Source: a virus. From it: a DNA stretch of 38,517 nt. A program made the translations under genes and the position numbers. This document shows positions 1,765 to 13,562 of this stretch, piece after piece; within the stretch, counting starts at the first letter, position 1; the number at the start of each line of letters is the position of its first letter. The stretch lies in IMG/VR virus record IMGVR_UViG_3300013093_000113, positions 1 to 38,517 of that record; one strand, 5' to 3'. The notes below the pieces were generated by a model, which was given only the letters and a program-made list of their open reading frames with translations, ran no database searches and was not told the origin of the DNA.

Positions 1765-2838
1765 ATGGCTCAATCAGATTTTGTATTTAATGGTATAGAT
1801 ATATCAGGTACTTCTGGTACTACAATTACACTCCCGTCCTCAACGGGAACATTACCATTAAATAACCAAACATTTTATATTGGTACACAACAAATTGCCA
1901 TTAATGCGGGATCTGGAACAATTACATCTTTACCAGGTGTTACTTCTATTAATGGTGCTACGTTACCATCTTCGGGAACTATTCCGAATACTGGACAAAC
2001 GTTTTATATTGGTACACAAGCCGTAACTATATCCCAAGGATCTGGAACAGTAACAACATTGCCAGGTGTTACATCTGTAAATGGAACAACTATTCCTTCC
2101 TCTTCAACACTAGTTACATCAGGAGCAAACTCAAGCATAACATCTTTAACTGGTTTAACTACCGCACTTTCTATTTCACAAGGCGGAACAGGAGCGACAA
2201 CAGCATCTACTGCTGCAGCAGCATTATTGCCTTCACAAACTTCAAACTCTGGAAAATACCTTACAACAGATGGGTCTGGAAATCTTTCATGGGCCTCTGT
2301 TTCAGGATATTCTGCTCCTACAATTGGCTCAACATCAATTGCATCAGGATCAACTGTAACAACAATTGCGGGACTTACATTAAGTTCTCCTACAATTAAT
2401 ACACCTACCCTTACATTATCAACATCTTCATCTACATCTAATGGTGTAATATCTTGGGATACAACAAATAAAAAACTTCAAGTAGGTAACGGATCAGCAA
2501 CAGTTGATATAAAACCTTATGTAGTTAATCAAACTGCAATTACATCAAGCTATACTCTTGCATTAACAGATGCAAATACATTAATTCAATTAAATGACTT
2601 CGCCGCTGGAGCAGCAACAATAACAGTACCATTAAATTCAAGTGTAGCTTTTCCAATTGGAACGCAAATTGACTTTATTAACTTAAACAATACATATAGA
2701 AATTCATTTGCTTTTGCTTCAGGAATAACGTCTTACTATACTCCTGGATTATATTTTAGAACTGCAGGATCTATGGCCTCTCTTATTAAAATAGGATCAG
2801 ATACCTGGGCATTAACTGGAGATTTGAGTGCAAGCTAA
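1765..2838 (+). CDS. Fibre-like structural protein (357 aa)
   Basis: The gene starts 1 nt after the preceding stop, with GGTGGT as a plausible ribosome site upstream. Residues ~35-115 hold two copies of a ~45-residue repeat (QTFYIGTQ...GSGT...LPGVTS.NG). Residues ~138-206 copy the LLPSQTSNSGKY module of the upstream fibre. The last ~100 residues form a separate domain (TITVPLNSS.AFPIGTQ ... IKIGSDTWALTGDLS) that resembles the C-terminal halves of the two 129-aa proteins at 11928-12706. It is therefore a mosaic of modules shared with both neighbouring adhesin blocks. No enzyme motif is visible. It is most likely a tail fibre or fibre-attached adhesin. The stop overlaps the next start in a TAATG junction, which suggests translational coupling. 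Confidence 0.7.
   Translation: MAQSDFVFNGIDISGTSGTTITLPSSTGTLPLNNQTFYIGTQQIAINAGSGTITSLPGVTSINGATLPSSGTIPNTGQTFYIGTQAVTISQGSGTVTTLPGVTSVNGTTIPSSSTLVTSGANSSITSLTGLTTALSISQGGTGATTASTAAAALLPSQTSNSGKYLTTDGSGNLSWASVSGYSAPTIGSTSIASGSTVTTIAGLTLSSPTINTPTLTLSTSSSTSNGVISWDTTNKKLQVGNGSATVDIKPYVVNQTAITSSYTLALTDANTLIQLNDFAAGAATITVPLNSSVAFPIGTQIDFINLNNTYRNSFAFASGITSYYTPGLYFRTAGSMASLIKIGSDTWALTGDLSAS
2179..2382 (+). repeat. Fibre module repeat, copy 2
   Basis: This is the second copy of the module at about 1245-1449, here inside the 357-aa fibre-like protein. The encoded LLPSQTSNSGKYLTTDG and LSWASVSGYSAPT segments are nearly unchanged. Boundaries are approximate. Confidence 0.8.
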
Positions 2839-3701
2839 TGGCGATAGTTCCTGGAATTAATGCTTCGACTGGTCTTCAAAGTCTACCAACTACATCAATC
2901 GCTGCTATTGCACCTACTTTAAATACATCAGCCGTAACTCCAGGTGTTTATATAAATGTAACTACAACTGGAAATGGAAATGCTGGTATATCAAAAAATA
3001 ATGATTATTATACTGTAAATATAACTCCAACAGCTGGCGGAGCAGCAGTTTTTAATGGAACAGTTTTTAATGGAAACATTAATTATGCTAACAGCAGTTT
3101 TAATTTTTCTTTAGGGCCTTCTAGCGGACAACGAAATGTTTATAGTAGTTTACCAACTTATCCAGCAGGAATTACTTTTACTGCAACTTCAACATCAACT
3201 GCTGTTTTAACAGTAGGAACAGCATATAACGTAACAGTTTCAGGAGTTTCATCAACACTTGGAACTACAAATTCTGCAACTTCTTCGTTTACTGCAAAAA
3301 CAGCACCTCTAGTTCCTACAATAGGATCAGCTTCAACGGGAACATCTTCAATAACTTGGAACTGGACTGCAGTTGCAAATAGTGGAAACAACTGGGGCGG
3401 AGATTCAAGTATAGTTTATGATGTGTATATGTATGTATATCTTCCAACAAGCTTATATACATCATCAACTGGAATTGCTTCATCAACTACTTCCTGGTCT
3501 TTATCAAGTGTACCAAGTAATACATACTATATTGATTTAGGTGCTAGAAACACAGTGGGTATTTCTTCTTATGCACAATCAGGAAACTATAGTGTAAGCA
3601 GTGCGCCTCCTCCAGTTTATATTCCGCCTCCACTTCCTACACCAATTTATCATCCTCCAACAAGACAGGGTGTTACTGCAAAAGATATAGAGTCAATATA
3701 G
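2838..3701 (+). CDS. Fibronectin-like adhesin with Pro-rich C-terminal tail (287 aa)
   Basis: The start codon overlaps the previous stop by 1 nt (TAATG). The protein is rich in Thr, Ser, Val and Tyr. It contains what looks like two fibronectin type III or similar beta-sandwich units: residues ~30-155, and ~156-255 with ITWNWTAV...Y.V.M and SSTTSWSLSSVPSN. Residues ~256-272 are a Pro/Tyr-rich linker (PPPVYIPPPLPTPIYHPP). The protein ends with PTRQGVTAKDIESI. The same order of domains and nearly the same tail occur in the 284-aa protein at 12708-13562, so the two are paralogues on either side of the modification cassette. The conserved tail could be an anchor, a chaperone-recognition tag or a modification site. 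The role as an adhesin is inferred. Confidence 0.65.
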   Translation: MAIVPGINASTGLQSLPTTSIAAIAPTLNTSAVTPGVYINVTTTGNGNAGISKNNDYYTVNITPTAGGAAVFNGTVFNGNINYANSSFNFSLGPSSGQRNVYSSLPTYPAGITFTATSTSTAVLTVGTAYNVTVSGVSSTLGTTNSATSSFTAKTAPLVPTIGSASTGTSSITWNWTAVANSGNNWGGDSSIVYDVYMYVYLPTSLYTSSTGIASSTTSWSLSSVPSNTYYIDLGARNTVGISSYAQSGNYSVSSAPPPVYIPPPLPTPIYHPPTRQGVTAKDIESI

Positions 3702-3723
3702 TTTTTCAATACTATATCACTAA

Positions 3724-3732
3724 TGCTATAAT
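3724..3732 (+). promoter_or_regulatory. Extended -10 promoter for the modification cassette
   Basis: TGC-TATAAT lies 15 nt before the ATG at 3748, in the 46-nt gap after adhesin block A. It matches the TGN-TATNNT motif found before eight other gene blocks here. No convincing -35 box is seen. The expected transcript start (~3739) leaves only a short leader containing GGGG. Confidence 0.6.
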
Positions 3733-3747: not shown

Positions 3748-4320
3748 ATGTTAATTGAAAAGAATAGTTCTTGGAGATTTTATTCTGAACCTATAAATTT
3801 TGATATTTCTGATTTAATAGAAGAGATAATTGCTTATAAAGCAGAATGGGATATAGATACATCAAGACAAAATTTAACAGATATACATAAAGATAGTAAA
3901 ATGTTTCAAATAAAATTTATGTCATATTTTTGGTCTTTAGGAGATAAAGTTTTTGTACAAGATGTTAATTCATTAAAAAATGAAAATTCTAAAAAATGTT
4001 TATATAAACTATTTGATATTTTTGAAAAGCATTATGATGGAAAAGTTGTAAGATGTGAGGTTATAGGATTGTTGCCAGGCGGATCCGTAGCTGTTCATCA
4101 AGATGATGGTGATTTTGCTAAATATGCAAGAAGAATACATGTTCCCATATTAACAAATAATAATGTTTTCTTTACAGTAATGGACGAAACAATTAATATG
4201 AAGTTGGGCAATTGGTATGAAATAAACAATGTTTTAGACCATAGTGTTAAAAATGAAAGTGATGAAAAAAGAATACATATAATAATAGATGTTTTAGAAA
4301 AAAGGTATTTAAATGAATAA
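3748..4320 (+). CDS. Aspartyl/asparaginyl beta-hydroxylase-like 2OG-Fe(II) oxygenase (190 aa)
   Basis: This is a probable Fe(II)- and 2-oxoglutarate-dependent hydroxylase of the aspartyl/asparaginyl beta-hydroxylase type. Iron ligands are visible as H117-x-D119 (in GGSVAVHQDD) and H165 (in VLDHSVKNES). R175 is placed to bind the 2-oxoglutarate carboxylate. The segment RRIHVPILTNNNVFF around residues 128-142 fits the double-stranded beta-helix core of that family. No signal peptide or membrane segment is seen, so it should act in the host cytoplasm. It is the first gene after a promoter-like TGC-TATAAT and overlaps the next gene by 8 nt. The substrate is unknown. Candidates are an adhesin side chain, a sugar intermediate or a lipid. 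The family call rests on motif order and spacing. Confidence 0.75.
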   Translation: MLIEKNSSWRFYSEPINFDISDLIEEIIAYKAEWDIDTSRQNLTDIHKDSKMFQIKFMSYFWSLGDKVFVQDVNSLKNENSKKCLYKLFDIFEKHYDGKVVRCEVIGLLPGGSVAVHQDDGDFAKYARRIHVPILTNNNVFFTVMDETINMKLGNWYEINNVLDHSVKNESDEKRIHIIIDVLEKRYLNE

Positions 4321-4951
4321 AAATGAAATTGCACTAGGAGTTTGGGTTTATAATAATTTTATAAAAGACACAGAAATTTTAATAGAAGATATTAAAAACT
4401 ATTTAGATCCATATTTCTCAGAAGCTTATGGTTTAACAAAAGACGGAGAACCAGTTATAAATAAAATGGGTAGAGATTGTTCTGATTACGCATTTCAAGA
4501 TGAGATGATAGATTCACTTGATGATAATCAAAAATCTATTTTTTTAAGAGTTAAAAATCCAATGGTTGAATGTCTTAAAGATTATAAATTAAAATATTTT
4601 TTGATTGATGATTTGAATGACACTGCTTGGATTTTTTTAAGATATGGAGAAGATCAACAATTTGGAAATCATATGGATGATGGTCCTATTTGTAACAGAA
4701 TGGTTTCTGTTACTGCATATTTAAATGATGATTATGATAATGGAGAAATATTTTTTCAAAACTTTAATGTATCTTATAAACCTAAAAAAGGAGACATCTT
4801 GGTGTTTCCGTCCAACTTTTTGTATGTTCATAGAGTAAATCCAGTAAAAAATGGAATAAGATATGCCGTTGTAAATTGGTTTAGATGGTTTTCTTTGCCA
4901 GAAAATGCAAATGAAATTAAAGAAATCAATAGGAAAGTAAATGCATACTAA
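4313..4951 (+). CDS. 2OG-Fe(II) oxygenase, prolyl 4-hydroxylase-like (212 aa)
   Basis: This is a probable prolyl-4-hydroxylase-type dioxygenase. The C-terminal half carries the full motif set: H120-x-D122 (FGNHMDDG), VTAYLNDDYDNGEIFF (residues 133-148), a KPKKGDILVFPS strand (157-167), H173 (YVHRV) and R183. The phrase YLNDDYxGGEIxF is typical of phage and bacterial P4H homologues. The first ~100 residues are an extension of unknown role. The gene overlaps both neighbours (8 and 11 nt), pointing to coupled translation. The substrate may be a Pro-rich protein such as the adhesin tails encoded nearby, but this is not shown by sequence. Confidence 0.82.
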   Translation: MNKNEIALGVWVYNNFIKDTEILIEDIKNYLDPYFSEAYGLTKDGEPVINKMGRDCSDYAFQDEMIDSLDDNQKSIFLRVKNPMVECLKDYKLKYFLIDDLNDTAWIFLRYGEDQQFGNHMDDGPICNRMVSVTAYLNDDYDNGEIFFQNFNVSYKPKKGDILVFPSNFLYVHRVNPVKNGIRYAVVNWFRWFSLPENANEIKEINRKVNAY

Positions 4952-5507
4952 CATACAAGATCCTAAAATAATAAAAAATTTATTAAATAAAGAAGATTTT
5001 AATTTTATTTTAAATCATCTTAAGGATAGTTTATCTAAACAAACATATTTTGAAAAAGATTTTGGAAGATATATATATACTTCAAAAGAAATAGAAAAAA
5101 TTTCAAAAGACATAACTCCTATAGCAAGAAAAGTTTTTAAAAGTAAAACTTTACTTCCATCTTATAGCTTATTTGCACATTATGAAGGTGAATCTGCAAA
5201 CCTATTTGCACATAAAGACGATAATGCTTGTACATATACATTAGATTTTTGTGTTTATCAAGAAACTCCATGGGGGATTTGTGTTGAGGGTAAAGAATAT
5301 TTTCTTGAAGAAAACGATGCCTTGGCATTTTATGGCATAGATCAAGAGCATTGGAGAAATGATTTTCCAGACCCCAAGAATAATAAAGTTGGTTTTATAT
5401 TTTTTCATTTTGTAGAACCAGATCATTGGTTTTTTACAAAAGGACCTACATACATAGATGTTATAAGAGGTTTAATTTCTGAATCAGATTGGTTATTAAA
5501 AAAATAA
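4941..5507 (+). CDS. Divergent 2OG-Fe(II) oxygenase-like protein (188 aa)
   Basis: This is a putative third oxygenase of the cassette. H91-x-D93 (LFAHKDDNACTYTLDF) and H137 (DQEHWRND) are spaced as in the 2OG-Fe(II) beta-helix fold. A strand with EENDALAFYG (residues 123-132) precedes the distal histidine. The usual distal Arg is not obvious: after H137 the protein runs NNKVGFIFFHFVEPDHWF, so K149 or another residue might replace it. The core lacks the YLNDDY phrase and is more divergent than its neighbours. It overlaps the preceding gene by 11 nt and ends directly against the next ATG (5508). Function is inferred from the iron triad and context. Confidence 0.6.
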   Translation: MHTNIQDPKIIKNLLNKEDFNFILNHLKDSLSKQTYFEKDFGRYIYTSKEIEKISKDITPIARKVFKSKTLLPSYSLFAHYEGESANLFAHKDDNACTYTLDFCVYQETPWGICVEGKEYFLEENDALAFYGIDQEHWRNDFPDPKNNKVGFIFFHFVEPDHWFFTKGPTYIDVIRGLISESDWLLKK

Positions 5508-6464
5508 ATGAAAAAAGCTTTAGTTCTAGGAGCTGGAGGATTTATAGGAAGTCATCTTGTAAAAAGATTAAAAGATGACGGAATCTGGGTTTTAGGCGTT
5601 GATTTAAAATATCCAGAATATTGGGATAGTTTTGCTGATAAATTTATTATTGGAGATTTAAGGAATCAGGATTTTGTAGATCAATTGATTAATGAAAAAT
5701 TTGATGAGGTTTATCAACTTGCAGCAGATATGGGAGGTTCTGGTTATATCAATACTGGAAATAATGATGCTGAAGTTATGAGTAATTCAATATTAATAAA
5801 TGTAAATGTTTTAAAAGCTGCCCATAGAGTAGGTATAAAAAGTGTATTTTTTTCTTCAACAGCATGTGTTTATCCAGAATACAATCAGCTTAATCCTGAA
5901 AATATAAATTGTAAAGAAGATTCTGTATATCCCGCACAACCAGACACGGAGTATGGTTGGGAGAAGCTGTTTAGTGAAAGACTTTATCTTGCATATAATA
6001 AAAATTATGGAATGAAAAATAAAATAGCTAGATATCACAATGTTTATGGACCATACGGAACTTGGCAGGGGGGGAAAGAAAAATTTCCAGCAGCTATATG
6101 TAGAAAGGTAGCACTAGCTAAAGAAAATGTTGAAATATGGGGTGATGGAAATCAAGTAAGATCTTTTTTATATATAGATGAGTGTATAAAAGCTACAGTT
6201 GATTTTTACAGAAATGATAGTTTTTTTCAACCAATAAATATAGGATCAGAAAAAGCTATAACAATAAATGATTTTTTTGATATTGTTTGTAAAATAGCAG
6301 ATAAACAAATAAATAAAATACATATAAAAGGTCCGATAGGCGTAAATGCAAGAACCTCTAACAATGATTTAATAAAACAAGTTTTGGGATATTCTCCAGA
6401 TGAAAATCTTGAATTTGGAATATCAAAAACCTATGATTGGATAAAAAATCAAATAAATGAATGA
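5508..6464 (+). CDS. GDP-mannose 3,5-epimerase family NAD-dependent epimerase (318 aa)
   Basis: This is an extended short-chain dehydrogenase/reductase closely resembling GDP-D-mannose 3,5-epimerase, which converts GDP-mannose to GDP-L-galactose (and GDP-L-gulose). The NAD-binding loop is GAGGFIGSH (residues 8-16). LAADMGGSGYI (71-81) matches the substrate loop of the plant enzyme. The active site appears complete: C120 (STACVYPEY), Y149 and K153 (YGWEK), and K192 in GTWQGGKEKFPAA. These four residues keep the same relative spacing as C145, Y174, K178 and K217 of Arabidopsis GME, as I recall them. RYHNVYGPYG (176-185) is also typical. Its product would feed the glycosyltransferase encoded next, with which it overlaps by 8 nt. 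A related GDP-sugar specificity cannot be excluded. Confidence 0.88.
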   Translation: MKKALVLGAGGFIGSHLVKRLKDDGIWVLGVDLKYPEYWDSFADKFIIGDLRNQDFVDQLINEKFDEVYQLAADMGGSGYINTGNNDAEVMSNSILINVNVLKAAHRVGIKSVFFSSTACVYPEYNQLNPENINCKEDSVYPAQPDTEYGWEKLFSERLYLAYNKNYGMKNKIARYHNVYGPYGTWQGGKEKFPAAICRKVALAKENVEIWGDGNQVRSFLYIDECIKATVDFYRNDSFFQPINIGSEKAITINDFFDIVCKIADKQINKIHIKGPIGVNARTSNNDLIKQVLGYSPDENLEFGISKTYDWIKNQINE

Positions 6465-7503
6465 TTTGATATTTTATAAGATGCATAACCCAACTGGGAT
6501 GATTAATCAACTTATGAGCTTTGAGCTTGCTATTGGCTTGGCGTATGAAACCAAAAGAACTGTTGTAATACACAATATGGTGTGTGGTGATTTTGAAGAA
6601 TTTGGTAAAAGGCTTGCAATATATACGCCATTAAGACATTCAGAGTTTAAAAGAGATGTTCCTTTATTAAATAATGATAATTCTCCACACATAAAAGATT
6701 TAATAGATTGGGATAAATCATTAAATATAGTTTTAATTGATGAAAATATTGAAAAGTTTCCTCAAGAGGATTTTGTTTATGAAGATATTCAATATTGTTA
6801 TTATAGCAATAATGAAAGTACCTATATAGAAAATATTTTTTCAGAAGGTAGAGAAAGACTTAATTTTATAAAAGAAAAAAACTTTCATTTAAAAAATACT
6901 TTAGGTTGGTATAGTAGATTCTTTTTTAATAGAAGCTCGGGTTTAGATAAAGCTTTGTCTTCTGTAAAATTTAAAAAAGAATATTTGAATTTTGCAGAAA
7001 TGGTTGCAAAATCAATAGGTGATTTTAATGGTGTTCATATAAGACTTACAGATCATGCTATAAGAATGTTTGACACAAAAGAAGAAATGATATTAAATGG
7101 ATTAAATTCTTTTGATGATGAATTGCCAATTGTTATTTGTACCGATGATCCAAATAATATTATTTTTAATAAAATAAATAAAAATATAATTATTATTGAT
7201 GATTATATTTTTAAAAACTTTAAAAAAGAATTTTTATCATTACCTTTTACAGATGAAATTGTTTTAGGCTTAGTAAGTAATTTAATAATGCATTATTCAA
7301 AAGATTTTATAGGAACTTCTGGCAGCACCTATACTGCGTATATACATAGAAATATAAATCAAAAAACTAATAATATGAAATGGAAATTTTTTGATAATCC
7401 TAATACAAATAATAATGGCCCGTTTTCTTGGGTTAATTATTCTTTGCCATTAAATGCAAAAATGTGGTGGAGAGAGTGGGATGAGTCTAAAATAAATGTT
7501 TAG
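6457..7503 (+). CDS. O-fucosyltransferase-like GT-B glycosyltransferase (348 aa)
   Basis: This is a probable glycosyltransferase using a GDP-sugar. The N-terminus has NPTGMINQLMSFELAIGLAY (residues 11-30), the equivalent of the G(G)xxNQ loop of the O-fucosyltransferase / alpha-1,2 and alpha-1,6-fucosyltransferase superfamily. Residues 190-200 (FNGVHIRLTDH) match the conserved H-x-R donor-binding motif. IVICTDDPNN (225-234) and DFIGTSGSTYTAYI (283-296) match the two C-terminal donor-binding motifs. No membrane segment is seen. It overlaps the epimerase gene by 8 nt, so a GDP-L-galactose or related donor made by that enzyme is a reasonable guess. The acceptor is unknown: a hydroxylated protein side chain or a glycan. 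Confidence 0.68.
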   Translation: MNDLIFYKMHNPTGMINQLMSFELAIGLAYETKRTVVIHNMVCGDFEEFGKRLAIYTPLRHSEFKRDVPLLNNDNSPHIKDLIDWDKSLNIVLIDENIEKFPQEDFVYEDIQYCYYSNNESTYIENIFSEGRERLNFIKEKNFHLKNTLGWYSRFFFNRSSGLDKALSSVKFKKEYLNFAEMVAKSIGDFNGVHIRLTDHAIRMFDTKEEMILNGLNSFDDELPIVICTDDPNNIIFNKINKNIIIIDDYIFKNFKKEFLSLPFTDEIVLGLVSNLIMHYSKDFIGTSGSTYTAYIHRNINQKTNNMKWKFFDNPNTNNNGPFSWVNYSLPLNAKMWWREWDESKINV

Positions 7504-7582
7504 TTATATAAAAAAAAGAATTTTGTTCTTTAAACAAAAAAGAAAGTATAAAAAATTTAATGGAAATAAATGGATATACTAA
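7496..7582 (+). CDS. Possible 28-aa basic small protein
   Basis: A short frame starts at an ATG overlapping the end of the glycosyltransferase gene by 8 nt. It encodes MFSYIKKRILFFKQKRKYKK and a few further residues, ending in TAA at 7580-7582. That stop forms a TAATG junction with an in-frame ATG (7582) of the next gene. Overlaps at both ends match the habit of this cassette, and the peptide is strongly basic with aromatic residues. The AT-rich DNA makes Lys-rich short frames likely by chance, so it may be only a spacer or a coupling leader. Confidence 0.25.
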   Translation: MFSYIKKRILFFKQKRKYKKFNGNKWIY

Positions 7583-8580
7583 TGAATGAATTTGATAAAT
7601 TTCCTGAATTTATGGAAAAGCATAACAGGCCTTATAATCAAGTTTATCGTTTAAAAGAAAATGTAGATTCCATCAATGCAGAGCATTGTGAAATTCCAAG
7701 GCCAGAGTATAATTATCAATATAATTCAGATGGTTTAAGAACAATAGAGTTTTCTGAAAAACCAAATGTAATTACAATGGGGTGCTCAAATACTTTTGGT
7801 TTAGGATTACCAATTGATAAAATTTGGCCATCATTTTTAGAAAAAAAATTAAAAGAAATAGGAAACTATACAGTAGGAAACATTTCTTATAATGGAAGTT
7901 CACCAATGACAAATATTTCAAATTTTTTTGCATTTATTAAAAAATATAAATATGCTCCAGAATATTTAATTTGTAATTTTTCAAATTTTGAAAGATTAAG
8001 CTTTTTTGCATATGAAAAATATGATTCTCCTATTGTTTTGTTTTTTCATAAAGAAAGATTGTTTAAAGATGAATATCCATATAATTGGGAAAAAACAATT
8101 TTATTGGAAGAGTATTATTATAAAAACTTAGATTATATAAGGATGTTAGAAGTTTTTTGTGAATATACTGGTATAAAATTAATATGGAGTACATGGTCAA
8201 ATGTTATAAAAAATGATTATGAGTCATATTTAAATAAAAATTTTAAATATTATCGTTCTGATTATACTAGAGATTTATTTCCTTCTTTTTTTGAATTTGG
8301 ATCACAAGACCTAAACGAATATAATCCTTTAAACCCAACTGTTGAGTCTTTAACTAATGTTTACAGAATGAAAAATTGGAATATTGAAAAATGTCACATT
8401 GATATTTTTAATGAAAATTTTGAAATTTTTGATTTTGCATATGATATATATCAAAATAAAACATCTTATATAAAAGGCGATATTGTGCCATGTCATCCTC
8501 ATCCAGGCACACACAGACAAATTCATTGGGCTGAATTTTATTTTAATGAAATGGTTAATTATGAACATAATAGGATTTAA
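7570..8580 (+). CDS. SGNH/GDSL-like hydrolase or acyltransferase fold protein (336 aa)
   Basis: This is a putative SGNH-fold enzyme. ITMGCSNTFGLGL (residues 68-80) resembles block I, with S73 as nucleophile (GCSNT in place of GDS). NGSS (~108-111) may be the block II/III oxyanion-hole region. CHPHPGTHRQIHWAEFYF (308-325) resembles block V, with H311 as catalytic base, although the usual Asp three residues before it is Cys here. Such enzymes act as esterases, lipases or O-acetyl-handling enzymes on glycans, which fits the cassette. The start is uncertain: ATG 7570 is listed, while ATG 7582 (M5) sits in a TAATG junction with the preceding tiny frame. The end overlaps the carbamoyltransferase by 20 nt. 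Catalytic activity is uncertain because of the altered block V. Confidence 0.55.
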   Translation: MDILMNEFDKFPEFMEKHNRPYNQVYRLKENVDSINAEHCEIPRPEYNYQYNSDGLRTIEFSEKPNVITMGCSNTFGLGLPIDKIWPSFLEKKLKEIGNYTVGNISYNGSSPMTNISNFFAFIKKYKYAPEYLICNFSNFERLSFFAYEKYDSPIVLFFHKERLFKDEYPYNWEKTILLEEYYYKNLDYIRMLEVFCEYTGIKLIWSTWSNVIKNDYESYLNKNFKYYRSDYTRDLFPSFFEFGSQDLNEYNPLNPTVESLTNVYRMKNWNIEKCHIDIFNENFEIFDFAYDIYQNKTSYIKGDIVPCHPHPGTHRQIHWAEFYFNEMVNYEHNRI

Positions 8581-9985
8581 TGAAACATCTCATGATGCTT
8601 CAATGGCTTTAATTAATGATGAAAAAATACTTTTTGCAGGACATGCAGAAAGATATAGTAAGAAAAAAAATGATTGGTATAATAATAATAAAATATATTA
8701 TAACTTAATTAATTATGGCTATCCAGATAAAATTGCTTATTATGAAAAAACCTTTTTAAAAAGATTAAGAATAAAGTTACGTGGCGGATCATCTGATTGG
8801 AAGCCTATTTATAAAGGAATGAAGCCAAAAGAATTTAAACACCATTATTCGCATGCAGCAGCTGGTTATTATACAAGCACTTTTAATGATGCTGCTATTG
8901 TAGTTTTAGACGCTATTGGAGAATTTAATACTTTAACCGTATGGATTGGTGTTGGTGAAAGTATTAAACTTAAATATAAAAAGAATTATCCATTTAGTTT
9001 TGGATTATTTTATTCAGCTTTTACACAATTAATTGGATTGATTCCTAATCAAGAAGAGTATATTATGATGGGAATGGCTGCTTATGGTAACCCTGACAAA
9101 TATTATGAGAAAGTTAATAAATATTTTCCTAAGTATAATAAACAAAGATATAACTTTCATAAGGGTATCAGAAACTGGAATTTAAATATTGCAGAGCAGG
9201 ATAAATTTGATATAGCTGCAGCTGTTCAAAAAGTTTATGAAGAACGATTAATTGAATTTATGTATAATGTAAGATATATAACTGGAAAAAACAAGCTTGT
9301 ATTTATGGGTGGTTGTGCTTTAAATTGTTCAGCAAATACTAGATTATGGGAAGTTTTTGAAGATATTTGGATTATGCCAAATCCAGGTGACGCTGGATCA
9401 AGTTTAGGTGCTGCACTTGCTTTGCTTGGAAAACATATAAAATGGGAAGGCCCATATTTAGGGTATGATTTAGGAAATGAATATCCCGTTGAAAAAATTA
9501 TTGATTCTTTAATTAAAAATAGAGTAGCACCAGTAGCAGCAGGAAGAGCGGAATATGGTCCAAGAGCATTTGGTAACAGAAGCATATTAGCGGATCCAAG
9601 AAATATTTCTACTAAAGATAAGGTAAATTTAATTAAACAAAGAGAGTTATTTCGACCATTTGCTCCAGTTGTTATGGAAGAATATGCAAATATGTTTTTT
9701 GAGATGCCTAAAGGCAAGCCTAGCCCTTATATGCAGTATACAGTAAAGTGTAAGATCCCATCTTTAATACCAGCTGTGGTTCATGTTGATGGTACATGCC
9801 GAGTACAAACGGTTAATAAAGAACAGCATCCAGGTTTATATCGTGTTTTGGAAAGATGGATGCAAATAACTGGAATTCCAGTTTTATTGAATACTAGTTT
9901 AAATATAAAAGGTCAACCCTTGCTAAATGATGAAAAAGATGTTATGATGTGGGAAGAAGAAAACAATGTTAAAATTATTAGGTGA
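8561..9985 (+). CDS. Carbamoyltransferase, NodU/CmcH/TobZ family (474 aa)
   Basis: This enzyme family transfers a carbamoyl group from carbamoyl phosphate, via carbamoyl-AMP, onto hydroxyls of sugars or antibiotics. The start at 8561 gives MNIIGFNETSHDASMAL, the usual N-terminus of the family. The earlier ATG at 8483 would add 26 unrelated residues inside the upstream gene. The N-terminal Kae1-like domain has HHYSHAAAGYY (H94 and H98, metal/ATP site), EYIMMGMAAYG, GGCALNCSANTRL (from residue 250) and PGDAGSSLGAAL. The C-terminal carbamoyltransferase domain has EYGPRAFGNRSILADPR (from ~331), LFRPFAPVV and GIPVLLNTSLN. All hallmark segments are intact. It ends in a GTGA overlap with the next gene. 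In this context it probably carbamoylates a sugar or a hydroxylated side chain. Confidence 0.92.
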   Translation: MNIIGFNETSHDASMALINDEKILFAGHAERYSKKKNDWYNNNKIYYNLINYGYPDKIAYYEKTFLKRLRIKLRGGSSDWKPIYKGMKPKEFKHHYSHAAAGYYTSTFNDAAIVVLDAIGEFNTLTVWIGVGESIKLKYKKNYPFSFGLFYSAFTQLIGLIPNQEEYIMMGMAAYGNPDKYYEKVNKYFPKYNKQRYNFHKGIRNWNLNIAEQDKFDIAAAVQKVYEERLIEFMYNVRYITGKNKLVFMGGCALNCSANTRLWEVFEDIWIMPNPGDAGSSLGAALALLGKHIKWEGPYLGYDLGNEYPVEKIIDSLIKNRVAPVAAGRAEYGPRAFGNRSILADPRNISTKDKVNLIKQRELFRPFAPVVMEEYANMFFEMPKGKPSPYMQYTVKCKIPSLIPAVVHVDGTCRVQTVNKEQHPGLYRVLERWMQITGIPVLLNTSLNIKGQPLLNDEKDVMMWEEENNVKIIR

Positions 9986-10569
9986 AAGTAGTAATGATGG
10001 TTTTTAAAGCACAAACTGTAAATAATCTATTGTCAGATGAAGAGTGTAAGATAATCTTAGACTTTGCAAAATCAACAGAAGGCTGGACTTCTGGTGGTTC
10101 AGATTTTTGGTCCGATCGTGTCATGAATGATATTGATATTTATAAAAATTATGACAAAGAGGTTGGTGCAATAATTCATGGTGCCAGAGAAAAAATAAAA
10201 AATAAAATTGTTGAGATTTATAGTCTTGACTATAATATATATCCAGATATAATGCAATTAGTTCGCTGGTTTCCTGGTTTAGAACAACCACCACATTGGG
10301 ATGATATGTCAAAGACTGAAGTGCATAAATCTTTTCAACATAGAATTTTTGGTGCAATAGTTTATTTAAATGATGATTATTATGGCGGACAAACATTTTA
10401 TCCAAATTATAACATTTATATAAAGCCAAGGCCAGGTATGCTTGCTGTTCATCCAGGTGACATAAATCATACTCATGGTGTAACAAAAGTAGAGAAAAGC
10501 AATCGCTACACATTGGCTTCTTTTTGGACTTCAGATAAAGGATTTGATAGTGGCTGGCCCTTATATTAA
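9982..10569 (+). CDS. 2OG-Fe(II) oxygenase, prolyl 4-hydroxylase-like (195 aa)
   Basis: This is the fourth oxygenase of the cassette. H105-x-D107 (PPHWDDMS), AIVYLNDDYYGGQTFY (residues 125-140), a KPRPGMLAVHPG strand (148-159), H165 (NHTHGV) and R175 (NRYTLASFW) form a complete P4H-type active site. The GTG at 9982 overlaps the previous stop (GTGA). ATG at 9994 or 9997 are alternative starts that would shorten it by 4-5 residues. No export signal is seen. It shares YLNDDYxGGxxxxPN and a following KP-x(4,5)-L strand with the oxygenases at 4313-4951 and 11301-11870, so these three are more related to each other than to the AspH-like gene. Confidence 0.88.
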   Translation: MKVVMMVFKAQTVNNLLSDEECKIILDFAKSTEGWTSGGSDFWSDRVMNDIDIYKNYDKEVGAIIHGAREKIKNKIVEIYSLDYNIYPDIMQLVRWFPGLEQPPHWDDMSKTEVHKSFQHRIFGAIVYLNDDYYGGQTFYPNYNIYIKPRPGMLAVHPGDINHTHGVTKVEKSNRYTLASFWTSDKGFDSGWPLY

Positions 10570-11308
10570 TGAGCCTGGGTATGAAGTCCCAGAAAATAGT
10601 ATTCTTGCCGTTTATTATGATAAGAATACTAAAGGTTATTTTGATGAAATTATTCAACCACTTATGGGTAATCCCAAGAGAGATTGGTTCACATCACATT
10701 TTTACTACTGCCTACCGCTAGCTATTGGAAATCAATATGGTTTTGTTATAAAATCAATGAGAGATTTTGATATAATTTGGGACGGAACAGAAAAAGATGC
10801 AGTAATTACTTTTTTAAATGAAGATAACTGTAATAAACAATATATTGGTACAGGCTTTAGCCAAGGAATCATAACTGTACAAAATCATTTTCATTTAAAA
10901 ACTCCTCCAGGAATTAATCTTATGACAATACAGCCACCCAATATGTTTATTCCTGGATGCTCTTCTATGACAGGAGTAATAGAGTCTGATCAAATAAGAA
11001 GAGATTTTACTTTTAATTTCAAAGTTACTGTTCCTAATTTTACAATTAAAGTAAGAAAAGGTGACCCGTTAGGAGCATTTATACCTATTCCAAGATATTT
11101 TGTTGATAATTTTAAAATAAAAGATTCTTATGATTTTTTTGATGAGCAAATTATAAAAAATGAAAAAGATGATCTTAATGAATTAAATAGACAAAGAATA
11201 AATGAAGATAAATCTAAACCTCATGAATCAGGTAGAAAGTATTTTAATGGAGTTCATGCTTTCGGAGAAAAATATGTAGATCATCAAAAACGAGTTACAT
11301 ATGAATGA
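10550..11308 (+). CDS. DUF6065-like protein of unknown function (252 aa)
   Basis: The start is set at GTG 10550 because AAAGGA (10537-10542) lies 7 nt upstream. TTG 10544 is possible but too close to that site. The start is nested in the end of the oxygenase gene. The protein resembles the uncharacterised DUF6065 family as I remember it: FYYCLPLAIGNQYGFVI, then GFSQGIITVQNHFHLKTPPG, NLMTIQPPN, GVIESDQIRRDFTFNFKVT and a KGDPLGAFIPIPR strand. These suggest a beta-rich cupin-like or jelly-roll fold. I see no conserved catalytic triad. The last ~50 residues are charged and probably extended. Its place between two oxygenase genes, overlapping both, suggests it works with them or on the same substrate. 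Confidence 0.65.
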   Translation: MAGPYINEPGYEVPENSILAVYYDKNTKGYFDEIIQPLMGNPKRDWFTSHFYYCLPLAIGNQYGFVIKSMRDFDIIWDGTEKDAVITFLNEDNCNKQYIGTGFSQGIITVQNHFHLKTPPGINLMTIQPPNMFIPGCSSMTGVIESDQIRRDFTFNFKVTVPNFTIKVRKGDPLGAFIPIPRYFVDNFKIKDSYDFFDEQIIKNEKDDLNELNRQRINEDKSKPHESGRKYFNGVHAFGEKYVDHQKRVTYE

Positions 11309-11870
11309 GGATTTAGATTTTAAAAAAATTAAATTTATTAAAAATGAAAAAAATAATTTAAGCAAAATTGGAGTTTTAACAAATAAGATAGCTAAATTTG
11401 AAAATTTTATTAATGAAGATATTTCTTTTCAACTTTTAAAAGAATATAATTTAAATAAAAATAAATATGATTTAAAAAACAAATATATATTTGGAAGCAA
11501 AAATAATTTTTATGTTGATTTAAAAAATAAAATTAAAATAATTGCAGAATTTGTTTTTGAAAAAGAGCTTTATTCATCAGCTTCATATTTTCAAGTTTGG
11601 CAAAAAGGAAGTTATGCACCATTACATTCAGATAATTCAGATTTAGAAGGCAATCCAAATGGTTCTAAAAAATTAAAATATGCTAGTGTTTTATATTTAA
11701 ATGATGATTACCAAGGTGGTGAAATATATTTTCCAAATGATAATATATCAATAAAACCAGCAAAAAACTCTTTATATCTTTTTTGTGGTGGCATAGAAAA
11801 TATACACGGGGTAAAAGAAATAATTAATGGAGAAAGAATAACTATGGCTTTTTGGTGGGACCACAAGTGA
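11301..11870 (+). CDS. 2OG-Fe(II) oxygenase, prolyl 4-hydroxylase-like (189 aa)
   Basis: This is the fifth oxygenase-like gene of the cassette. H109-x-D111 (APLHSDNSD), ASVLYLNDDYQGGEIYFPN (residues 128-146), KPAKNSLYLFCGG (152-164), H169 (NIHGV) and R179 (ERITMAFWW) make a complete iron and 2-oxoglutarate site. The first ~85 residues are Lys/Asn-rich and poorly conserved-looking, as expected in this very AT-rich stretch. It overlaps the DUF6065-like gene by 8 nt. It is the last gene of the cassette: after its TGA come 24 nt and then a new promoter-like element for adhesin block B. Confidence 0.87.
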   Translation: MNEDLDFKKIKFIKNEKNNLSKIGVLTNKIAKFENFINEDISFQLLKEYNLNKNKYDLKNKYIFGSKNNFYVDLKNKIKIIAEFVFEKELYSSASYFQVWQKGSYAPLHSDNSDLEGNPNGSKKLKYASVLYLNDDYQGGEIYFPNDNISIKPAKNSLYLFCGGIENIHGVKEIINGERITMAFWWDHK

Positions 11871-11927: not shown

Positions 11928-12317
11928 ATGACAGACAGTAATTTTAAAGTAAAAGATGGCCTATCTGTGGGCGGAAACATAATCTCTTCTGGTGCAGTAA
12001 ATGGTTATTTAAAAATAAGTAATTATAATTCTGATATAAATATGAATACAAATTTTAACGGTTATTTAGTATTTACTAATAATGGTTATGCTCATACTAT
12101 AACACTTACCGATGATTCTCAAACACCAATAGGAACTAATATAACAGCTTTTAGTGTAGATCAGTACATTACTTTTATAGTATATCCAACCAACACAGTT
12201 ACATTGGCTAATGCAAATGATTCAGTAAGTTCTGTGCAAACAAATGGGCCATATTGTATTGCATCAGCAGTAAAAATAGCTTCAAATACTTGGCTAATTT
12301 CGGGAGATTTATCATAA
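11928..12317 (+). CDS. Small fibre-like protein, tandem paralogue 1 (129 aa)
   Basis: This protein and the next gene's product are both exactly 129 residues and begin with the same pattern, MTDxNFKVKxGLxVGGxI, typical of phage fibre or adhesin subunits. The C-terminal half (PIGTNITAF...VKIASNTWLISGDLS) resembles the next gene and the C-terminal domain of the 357-aa protein at 1765-2838. A strong ribosome site GAGGGAGAG precedes the ATG. The stop overlaps the next start (TAATG). No enzymatic motif is present. It is most likely a short adhesin or fibre tip, with the paralogue pair created by tandem duplication and divergence. Confidence 0.65.
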   Translation: MTDSNFKVKDGLSVGGNIISSGAVNGYLKISNYNSDINMNTNFNGYLVFTNNGYAHTITLTDDSQTPIGTNITAFSVDQYITFIVYPTNTVTLANANDSVSSVQTNGPYCIASAVKIASNTWLISGDLS

Positions 12318-12706
12318 TGACAGACAATAATTTTAAAGTAAAAAATGGTTTAACTGTAGGTGGAGACATAAATGTTTCAGGTGCAGTAACAGCTTATGCA
12401 TCTGTTAATAATCAAACTACAAGCTATGAACTTGTATCATCAGATAATGGCAATATTGTTGTAATTACATCAGGTTCAACTACAACTGTTACTCTTCCAA
12501 ATGATTCTGTTTTACCAATAGGATCACAAGTTGTAATAGTTCAGGGTGGAGGAAATTATGTTTCTATAGTTGGAGATACTGGAGTAACAGTAAACTCAAG
12601 CATAAATAATAGTGGGGGTAATTTAAGAACAAGAGTCCAATGGAGTTCAATTACTGCAATAAAATACTCATCAAATGCTTGGGTTTTAGTGGGAGACATT
12701 TACTAA
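12317..12706 (+). CDS. Small fibre-like protein, tandem paralogue 2 (129 aa)
   Basis: The start is placed at ATG 12317, which overlaps the previous stop and restores the MTDNNFKVKNGLTVGGDI N-terminus shared with the upstream paralogue. An in-frame ATG at 12254 would add 21 residues read from inside that gene and is rejected. The body includes TVTLPNDSVLPIGSQVVIV and ends ITAIKYSSNAWVLVGDIY, matching the C-terminal domain family of the 357-aa fibre-like protein. It is probably a structural adhesin component. The stop is 1 nt from the next ATG at 12708. Confidence 0.65.
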   Translation: MTDNNFKVKNGLTVGGDINVSGAVTAYASVNNQTTSYELVSSDNGNIVVITSGSTTTVTLPNDSVLPIGSQVVIVQGGGNYVSIVGDTGVTVNSSINNSGGNLRTRVQWSSITAIKYSSNAWVLVGDIY

Positions 12707-12707
12707 A

Positions 12708-13562
12708 ATGCAGGGAATTACACCATTTATACTTGGCAATCATGGAAATTCTGGTTATTACTTAACTCCAAATCCAACTATGACTGGTATCAGTTGTTAT
12801 AATATTTCCTATGGCGGTTACCCTAGGTTTAAAGCAAACTGGACATGGCCTGTAACAGAATATCCAAAAGGAGATTATGAAGTAATTATTTATGTTAAAA
12901 AATCAAGTGATTCTTCGTATGTTGGAGAAGATTTTTTATCATATGGCAACTATGCTCCAGATTATGGAAATTCTTCTGGTCTTGCAGTATTAAACGCAAC
13001 AAGTGGATCATGGAGTACACTTAACTCAAATTCTAATTTTTATTCACCATCACCATTTGTTGCTGGAACAACGTATGATATAACTATATATGTCAATAAT
13101 AATCCAACTTATAATAGTGGTTTTACATTTAATGGATTATCAAGAGCAGCTGGAACTACATATACAAATCAGCTTGCTATGACATTACCAGCAAATATTT
13201 CTTCAATTACTGCAAGTGGAGGAACTGGATCTGCAAGTGCAAGTTGGACTGCACCTAATTCTGGTGGAAGTACAAACATTTATTATTATTGGGCACTTTT
13301 TACAAGTACTGGTTCAGAAGTTTCAAATGGAAATGCATCCAATACTACAAGTATTGGAACTGGGGGCTTATCAAGCGGTTCATATTATTTTGTTGTTACT
13401 ACAGGAAATGAAACTGGATTTAACACATCTTCTACAACAAGTAATACTTTTACAGTAAGCAGTGTTCCACCTCCAATTTATACGCCAGTTTATATTCCAC
13501 CTCCAGTCCATATACCAACCAGACAGGGTGTTACGGTAAAAGACATACAAGGTTTAAGTTAA
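12708..13562 (+). CDS. Fibronectin-like adhesin with Pro-rich C-terminal tail, paralogue (284 aa)
   Basis: This is a paralogue of the 287-aa protein at 2838-3701. The N-terminal ~160 residues look like a beta-sandwich domain (YPRFKANWTWPVTEYPKGDY ... AGTTYDITIYVN). A second domain at ~165-250 is fibronectin type III-like (SITASGGTGSASASWTAP ... GSYYFVVTTGNETG). The C-terminus is a Pro/Tyr-rich linker (PPPIYTPVYIPPPVHI) followed by PTRQGVTVKDIQGLS. The DNA of the tail is also conserved: 19 of 20 bases match between 3657-3676 and 13515-13534. The tail is thus the best preserved part of the pair. No enzymatic residues are seen. It is likely attached to the tail or capsid, and is a candidate substrate for the cassette's hydroxylases. 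Confidence 0.65.
   Translation: MQGITPFILGNHGNSGYYLTPNPTMTGISCYNISYGGYPRFKANWTWPVTEYPKGDYEVIIYVKKSSDSSYVGEDFLSYGNYAPDYGNSSGLAVLNATSGSWSTLNSNSNFYSPSPFVAGTTYDITIYVNNNPTYNSGFTFNGLSRAAGTTYTNQLAMTLPANISSITASGGTGSASASWTAPNSGGSTNIYYYWALFTSTGSEVSNGNASNTTSIGTGGLSSGSYYFVVTTGNETGFNTSSTTSNTFTVSSVPPPIYTPVYIPPPVHIPTRQGVTVKDIQGLS

Follow-up and report, generated by a model that had tools for sequence, protein, structure and literature searches.

Association of a ten-gene phage cassette of oxygenase, epimerase, glycosyltransferase and carbamoyltransferase genes with proline-rich fibre segments, its candidate substrates

The 38,517-base IMG/VR virus record IMGVR_UViG_3300013093_000113, referred to here as the window, carries at positions 3748–11870 ten open reading frames (ORFs; g1–g10) on the plus strand, as are all window features described below, between the fibre genes f2 (ending at 3701) and f3 (starting at 11928). 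These genes encode five 2-oxoglutarate (2OG)-Fe(II) oxygenase-like proteins, a GDP-mannose 3,5-epimerase (GME) homologue, a protein O-fucosyltransferase (POFUT)-like glycosyltransferase (GT), an SGNH-hydrolase-like protein, a NodU/CmcH-type O-carbamoyltransferase, and a DUF6065 protein, and the cassette that they form is probably a pathway by which the phage modifies proline-rich segments of its own fibres after translation. The first-pass annotation of this DNA had described a tight ten-gene run of these families, which was confirmed by the ORF layout, Pfam and PHROGs matches, solved structures, and two AlphaFold models compared with Foldseek. It had also named virion adhesins or a surface glycan as the substrate; comparison with other phages favours virion fibres over a surface glycan, and within the fibres proline-rich tracts, which the annotation did not mention. 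The suggested sequential chemistry and any role in host recognition or defence evasion are conjectural.

In the cassette, two recurring modules, g2–g7 (module A) and g8–g9 (module B), are joined as a mosaic, with g1 and g10 as extra oxygenases; the cassette's members do co-occur, but not as the one conserved joint pathway first envisaged. The refuting outcome proposed with the annotation, genes never found together in related phages, was not observed: in 80 loci found via g5, an epimerase gene lies within 4 kb of the GT gene in 76, a g3-type oxygenase gene in 75, and an SGNH gene in 63. The carbamoyltransferase, present in 11 of the 80, is an optional member of module A. The usual order in module A is a proline-rich fibre, a small Cys protein (DUF6171-like), one or more oxygenases, and epimerase, GT and SGNH genes, with the carbamoyltransferase in some loci; locus L092, with its unlike surroundings, keeps the g2–g7 order behind a fibre with a (PT)n tract. 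In module B, a 2OG oxygenase gene is found ≤600 bp upstream of the DUF6065 gene in 59 of 72 loci.

The association between modules and proline tracts was found in both directions. Fibres upstream of the modules carry tracts of the types (PTPVA)n, (PAPVA)n, (PT)n, (PPPIIAT)n, (TPPV)n, and poly-P. In the forward test, a same-strand ORF with at least 12 prolines in 40 residues was sought ≤5 kb upstream of the enzyme genes, antisense proline-rich ORFs being left out by gene calling; controls were loci with neither GT nor DUF6065, in which a proline-rich ORF was counted anywhere. Such an ORF was present in 58 of 59 GT loci and 26 of 44 DUF6065 loci, compared with 2 of 25 same-group fibre loci, 7 of 60 carbamoyltransferase loci, and 2 of 58 protease loci. 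The two positive same-group controls (L248 and L256, which are L009 and L039 among the protease loci) have 2OG genes next downstream; the proline-rich ORFs of the carbamoyltransferase controls (L102, L128, and others) look like an unrelated protein of 530–700 amino acids and were kept in the count against the hypothesis. Counted by clusters (85% identity for the GT), the test was positive in 19 of 20 GT clusters and 14 of 21 DUF6065 clusters.

For the reverse test, contigs were chosen only by tract-encoding DNA, with no enzyme selection, and a cassette enzyme was sought within 6 kb, using enzyme profiles made from the forward loci; a few contigs were common to both sets. Each scan comprised at least 120 stretches, and the counts that follow are those among the matches listed, rates that may shift in a full scan. 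A cassette enzyme was found downstream in 66 of 75 (PTPVA)2 contigs and upstream in 0 of 44; for (TPPV)n contigs the corresponding counts were 24 of 62 and 0 of 62. By 3-kb DNA clusters, 27 of 33 (PTPVA)2 clusters and 20 of 50 (TPPV)n clusters were positive. Tract length mattered among the (TPPV)n loci, 24 of 34 with at least six units being positive versus 0 of 28 with fewer (p = 1e-9). Module A accompanies isolated prolines (X-P-X-P) and module B contiguous ones, with no overlap: the median share of prolines touching another proline is 1.8% in module A tracts (n = 48) versus 91% in module B tracts (n = 28; U = 0, complete separation), although the tracts, de-duplicated by sequence, are kin by descent, so the p-value for tract type overstates their independence. 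Within the same phage, another fibre, bearing a tract of PPFF repeats (L284, L299, and L348, near 18.5–20 kb), has a 2OG gene of its own behind it in each of the three loci with at least 1 kb of downstream sequence.

Two features of the tract-bearing fibres were noted in passing. The proline-tract fibres L248:10576-12417 and L348:18751-20019 appear to end in a domain of the intein/Hint type (...NILVHNK or ...GILVHNK), suggestive of self-cleavage where the tract ends, and many tracts in the L166–L244 and L092 fibres are followed by a short Cys-rich end (e.g., CGDGSPQCPGDFGQCVPGPCAA), possibly a disulfide knob.

The window's own candidate substrates are the fibre-like protein f2 (2838..3701), whose C-terminal tail is rich in proline (PPPVYIPPPLPTPIYHPPTRQGVTAKDI; 10 of 40 residues, a level reached by 1.0% of 1811 background genes), and its paralogue f5 (12708..13562; 34% identity over 157 residues, 3e-11), with a similar tail (PPPIYTPVYIPPPVHIPTRQGVTVKDI; 8 in 40, reached by 3.0% of the same genes). 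Counted by eye, 8 of the 10 tail prolines of f2 and 6 of the 8 of f5 are contiguous, which is the module B type, and L200, L212, and L216 carry PPPVFT tracts similar to this tail motif. A sibling contig, 98% identical to the window and carrying all ten genes, has one more PPPVFI unit in its f2 (13 prolines in 40), so repeat number varies between near-identical phages. Upstream of f2 lies f1 (1765..2838), a fibre protein with a WALTGDL-type C-terminal domain, after which the proline tract comes in other phages; the short fibre proteins f3 and f4 (11928..12706) share this WxLxGDx domain.

Several observations weigh against the proposal that the cassette modifies these segments. The short tails of f2 and f5 fall under the survey threshold of 12 prolines, which makes the proline link weaker for the window than for its relatives and the module family as a whole, and among testable GT clusters the window alone failed the forward test. 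An X-P-X-P tract, the accompaniment of module A elsewhere, was sought in the window and none was found; module A may therefore act on another residue here. The forward test was negative in seven of the 21 DUF6065 clusters. Some loci of the window's phage group (L249, L258, L262, and L269) have oxygenase or DUF6065 genes but no proline tract, and oxygenases without such tracts are also present in cultured cyanophages such as P-RSM4; these families as a whole are therefore not proline-specific and have other substrates too. Module and fibre family could be co-inherited in part, and co-location is not proof of an enzyme–substrate pair.

Within module A, g2 (4313..4951) is a 2OG-Fe(II) oxygenase (PF13640, 2OG-FeII_Oxy_3, 7.7e-15; H120, D122, H173, and R183), and g3 (4941..5507) is a divergent 2OG-like oxygenase that matches phrog_2954, labelled ferrochelatase, and gives no Pfam match; its HxD...H triad (H91, D93, and H137) is invariant across its family. 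The epimerase homologue g4 (5508..6464; Pfam Epimerase, 8e-47) has full-length similarity to GME (structure 2c59, 5e-89) far above that to other short-chain dehydrogenase/reductase epimerases (302 vs. 96 bits, the next family scoring 2e-26), and C120, Y149, K153, and K192 align with the active-site stretch of plant GME.

The GT, g5 (6457..7503), resembles POFUT2 by sequence (4e-4). Alone it gives no match to PF10250 (O-FucT), which is matched by 20 of 23 members of its family (best 3.5e-5). Its AlphaFold2 (AF2) model (predicted local distance difference test [pLDDT] 83.8) matches POFUT2, POFUT1, NodZ, and FUT8 in Foldseek (best 3.5e-7), all the listed fold neighbours being GDP-fucose fucosyltransferases, with TM-scores of about 0.4–0.5, which is likeness at the level of fold only; the protein is therefore called POFUT-like and not a family member. 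R196, D199, S290, and T291 are invariant, and an HxRxxD-type GDP-binding motif is present. No relative of g5 was found in 84,980 prokaryote species genomes, so there is no bacterial context to learn from, and neither g5 nor DUF6065 was found in cultured phages at the limits used.

The SGNH-like protein g6 (7570..8580; GCSxTxG) has both the block I Ser and the block V Asp/His (S73, D292, and H311, invariant); singly it has no Pfam match, with its relatives it gives a weak GDSL/SGNH match (best 0.013), and its similarity to SGNH/TesA structures is weak (7.5e-4 to 5e-3). The last gene of the module, g7 (8561..9985, its start corrected to ATG 8561 from TTG 8483), encodes an O-carbamoyltransferase with both C and N domains (Carbam_trans, 1.5e-50 and 7e-39), the HHYSH and DAGSS motifs, and the HxxxH and Asp metal ligands; among solved structures it matches novobiocin carbamoyltransferase (6e-52), GdmN, and TobZ. 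In 54 of 79 carbamoyltransferase loci the carbamoyltransferase gene sits beside an SGNH gene, and this pair (L086–L164) recurs outside module A too, on contigs that look T4-like. A small Cys-rich protein (TPWQxYKxxLGxTRPWD, weak DUF6171; L092:3787-4032 and relatives) lies ≤4 kb from the g5-type GT in 72 of 80 loci, usually directly after the fibre gene; it was not seen in the window and is perhaps part of module A.

In module B, g8 (9982..10569; 2OG-FeII_Oxy_3, 5e-8) is like a prolyl 4-hydroxylase (P4H), its nearest solved structures being the bacterial P4Hs 3itq and 5hv0 (1.5e-8); it has a 2OG-FeII_Oxy domain with H105/D107 plus H163 or H165 and a distal Arg, and from these features peptidyl-proline hydroxylation is its putative activity. 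The DUF6065 protein g9 (10544..11308; PF19541, 1.3e-33) has a predicted dUTPase-like fold (AF2 model pLDDT 87.5; Foldseek match to dUTPases 1.6e-4, probability 1.00). No dUTPase sequence match was found for g9, which is therefore not classed as a dUTPase. The combination of such a predicted fold with no detectable dUTPase sequence match extends to 31 relatives; dUTPase-like ORFs sought by regular expression as a comparison for DUF6065 gave none. The extra oxygenases are g1 (3748..4320), which is Asp/Asn beta-hydroxylase-like (PF05118, Asp_Arg_Hydrox, 1.3e-10; H117, D119, and H165), and g10 (11301..11870; PF13640, 1e-10; H109, D111, H169, and R179). All five oxygenases (g1, g2, g3, g8, and g10) keep the HxD motif and the distal His. 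The clear P4H similarity of g8 and the HxD...H site throughout led us to reject "ferrochelatase" and "DNA endonuclease", the names that PHROGs gives to these oxygenases; as carried by phrog_2954, phrog_3531, phrog_2297, phrog_274, and cyanophage records, such labels are probably misannotations.

A pathway can be proposed from these families in which the P4H-like 2OG oxygenases (g8, and also g2, g3, and g10) would hydroxylate prolines in the PPP tails of f2 and f5, any part taken by g1 being conjectural. The epimerase g4 would convert host GDP-mannose into GDP-L-galactose or GDP-L-gulose, the two products of GME. Fucose is 6-deoxy-L-galactose, so GDP-L-galactose is a plausible donor for a fucosyltransferase-like GT, and g5 may transfer the L-sugar, probably of L-galactose type, onto the hydroxylated tail. 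Subsequently, g7 would carbamoylate the sugar and g6 might acylate or de-acylate it; g9 may assist on contiguous-proline tails, perhaps as a non-catalytic binding partner. Ser and Thr are nearly absent from several module A tracts (1% in L340 and in L290, 3% in L321), which makes hydroxyproline the likely acceptor there, if the tract is glycosylated at all. The benefit could be a stiffer polyproline-II stalk, protease resistance, adsorption, or masking. Stated most broadly, the tail fibres of freshwater phages would bear plant-like glycoproteins linked through hydroxyproline, module A reading X-P-X-P and module B PPP, with the window a mosaic of both, a generalization for which the chances appear evenly balanced.

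Enzymes of this kind might instead modify a host surface or capsule glycan during infection, in superinfection exclusion or receptor masking, with fibre adjacency reflecting a shared hypervariable locus for host interaction. Tailoring of glycans is a common function of GME-like epimerases, SGNH proteins, and carbamoyltransferases; NodZ, one of the fold neighbours of g5, decorates Nod factors together with NodU-type carbamoyltransferases; and the locus is hypervariable, the carbamoyltransferase being missing from 34 of 35 related records. This explanation is nevertheless unlikely: it does not foresee that the enzymes are retrieved by tract alone, in those 66 of 75 contigs among the matches listed and always downstream, nor the dose effect or the tract-type rule, and P4H-like and AspH-like oxygenases work mainly on proteins or amino acids. 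The same facts bear on the suggestion that a recombination hotspot near fibre genes has gathered unrelated cargo, the proline tracts being passive linkers inherited with certain fibre families. Mosaic composition, low GC content, the hypervariable locus, and oxygenases near tract-free fibres fit such an origin, but the conserved gene order of module A across loci, the effect of tract length, the strict downstream position, the split by tract type, and the cluster-level counts make it improbable.

Hypermodification of DNA, in which an oxygenase hydroxylates a base that a GT and a carbamoyltransferase then decorate, has a biochemical precedent, as a phage-type carbamoyltransferase has been proven to act on 5-hydroxymethylcytosine (5hmC; PMC8670742) and such pathways employ 2OG oxygenases and GTs. 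However, the identity between g7 and the 5hmC carbamoyltransferase is only 24%; the latter co-occurs with thymidylate-synthase-family genes, none of which was found in 19 records (five longer than 110 kb, several partial); and the oxygenases are P4H/AspH-like rather than TET/JBP-like, the GT resembles POFUT, and the genes are associated with fibres, leaving this possibility very remote. Modification of the proline-rich fibre segments remains the preferred interpretation of the cassette.

A close parallel is found in plants, where extensins and arabinogalactan proteins are modified by prolyl hydroxylases followed by O-glycosylation of hydroxyproline, and where contiguous and isolated prolines of hydroxyproline-rich glycoproteins receive different glycans. 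As in that system, genes for P4H and GT lie together with the gene for a proline-rich candidate substrate in the modules, a feature that is weaker for the window; unlike it, the modules occur in phages and have a POFUT/NodZ-like GT in place of a plant arabinosyl- or galactosyltransferase. For contiguous hydroxyproline, PMC4132260 cites Shpak 2001. For the chlorovirus PBCV-1, a prolyl 4-hydroxylase and, by the title of the paper, evidence for hydroxyproline in viral proteins are reported by Eriksson et al. 1999 (cited in PMC9301287). PBCV-1 shares with the cassette a virus-encoded P4H and differs in being a eukaryotic virus. To our knowledge, epimerase, GT, SGNH, and carbamoyltransferase genes do not form a linked module in it.

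Viral P4HA auxiliary genes are described as abundant in the Baltic Sea, with a use termed cryptic, and neighbouring proline-rich fibre or glycosylation genes are not reported in the passages of that account consulted (PMC9301287). Decoration of Nod factors (NodZ, NodU/NolO) likewise combines a NodZ-fold GT and a NodU-type carbamoyltransferase on one glycan, but there the acceptor is a chitin oligosaccharide and here the proposed acceptor is a protein tract; the 5hmC carbamoyltransferase (MetaGPA, PMC8670742) belongs to the same superfamily as g7 and differs in its 24% identity, its neighbours, and its nucleic acid substrate. The literature searched, whose coverage mostly excludes subscription journals and preprints, yielded no account of a phage pathway in which P4H, GT, and carbamoyltransferase are linked to proline tracts of fibres. 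The gene set is not unique to the window: the sibling has all ten genes and sub-sets recur widely. Novelty appears to lie in the phage setting and in the two-module rule for tracts; the enzyme classes and the plant-like logic are already known.

The two-way association with fibre tracts would name a substrate for cryptic viral P4H genes, which PMC9301287 reports as abundant in aquatic viromes. If the proposal is correct, part of the fibre in many lake phages would be a decorated proline rod, with bearing on adsorption, host range, and protease resistance. Hydroxyproline-linked glycosylation is known from plants and algae, and phage proteins would then be glycosylated by the same linkage. DUF6065 and the POFUT-like phage GT family would gain a working context.

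By its portal, protease, and tape-measure genes, the window belongs to a large group of metagenomic phage contigs; as the same sample sets keep recurring, we infer a freshwater origin for the group. Its nearest cultured relatives by protease are Streptomyces phages (~42% identity), and no near-match to its DNA was found in cultured phages. The segment between fibre and portal genes is hypervariable in this group, and the carbamoyltransferase is absent from 34 of 34 same-group records other than the sibling; the cassette is therefore lineage-specific cargo. Its genes overlap by 4–26 bp or abut, with the exception of a 66-bp gap between g5 and g6. In the 46-bp gap ahead of g1, the promoter-like element of the first-pass annotation was found as a TG-extended TATAAT (TTTTCA-18-TGCTATAAT, 3703..3732), a consensus match only, such sites being no commoner in the region than in shuffled sequence (57 vs. 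65 ± 8). Relative to its flanks the cassette is AT-richer (GC content 24–32% vs. about 32–39%) and G-skewed.

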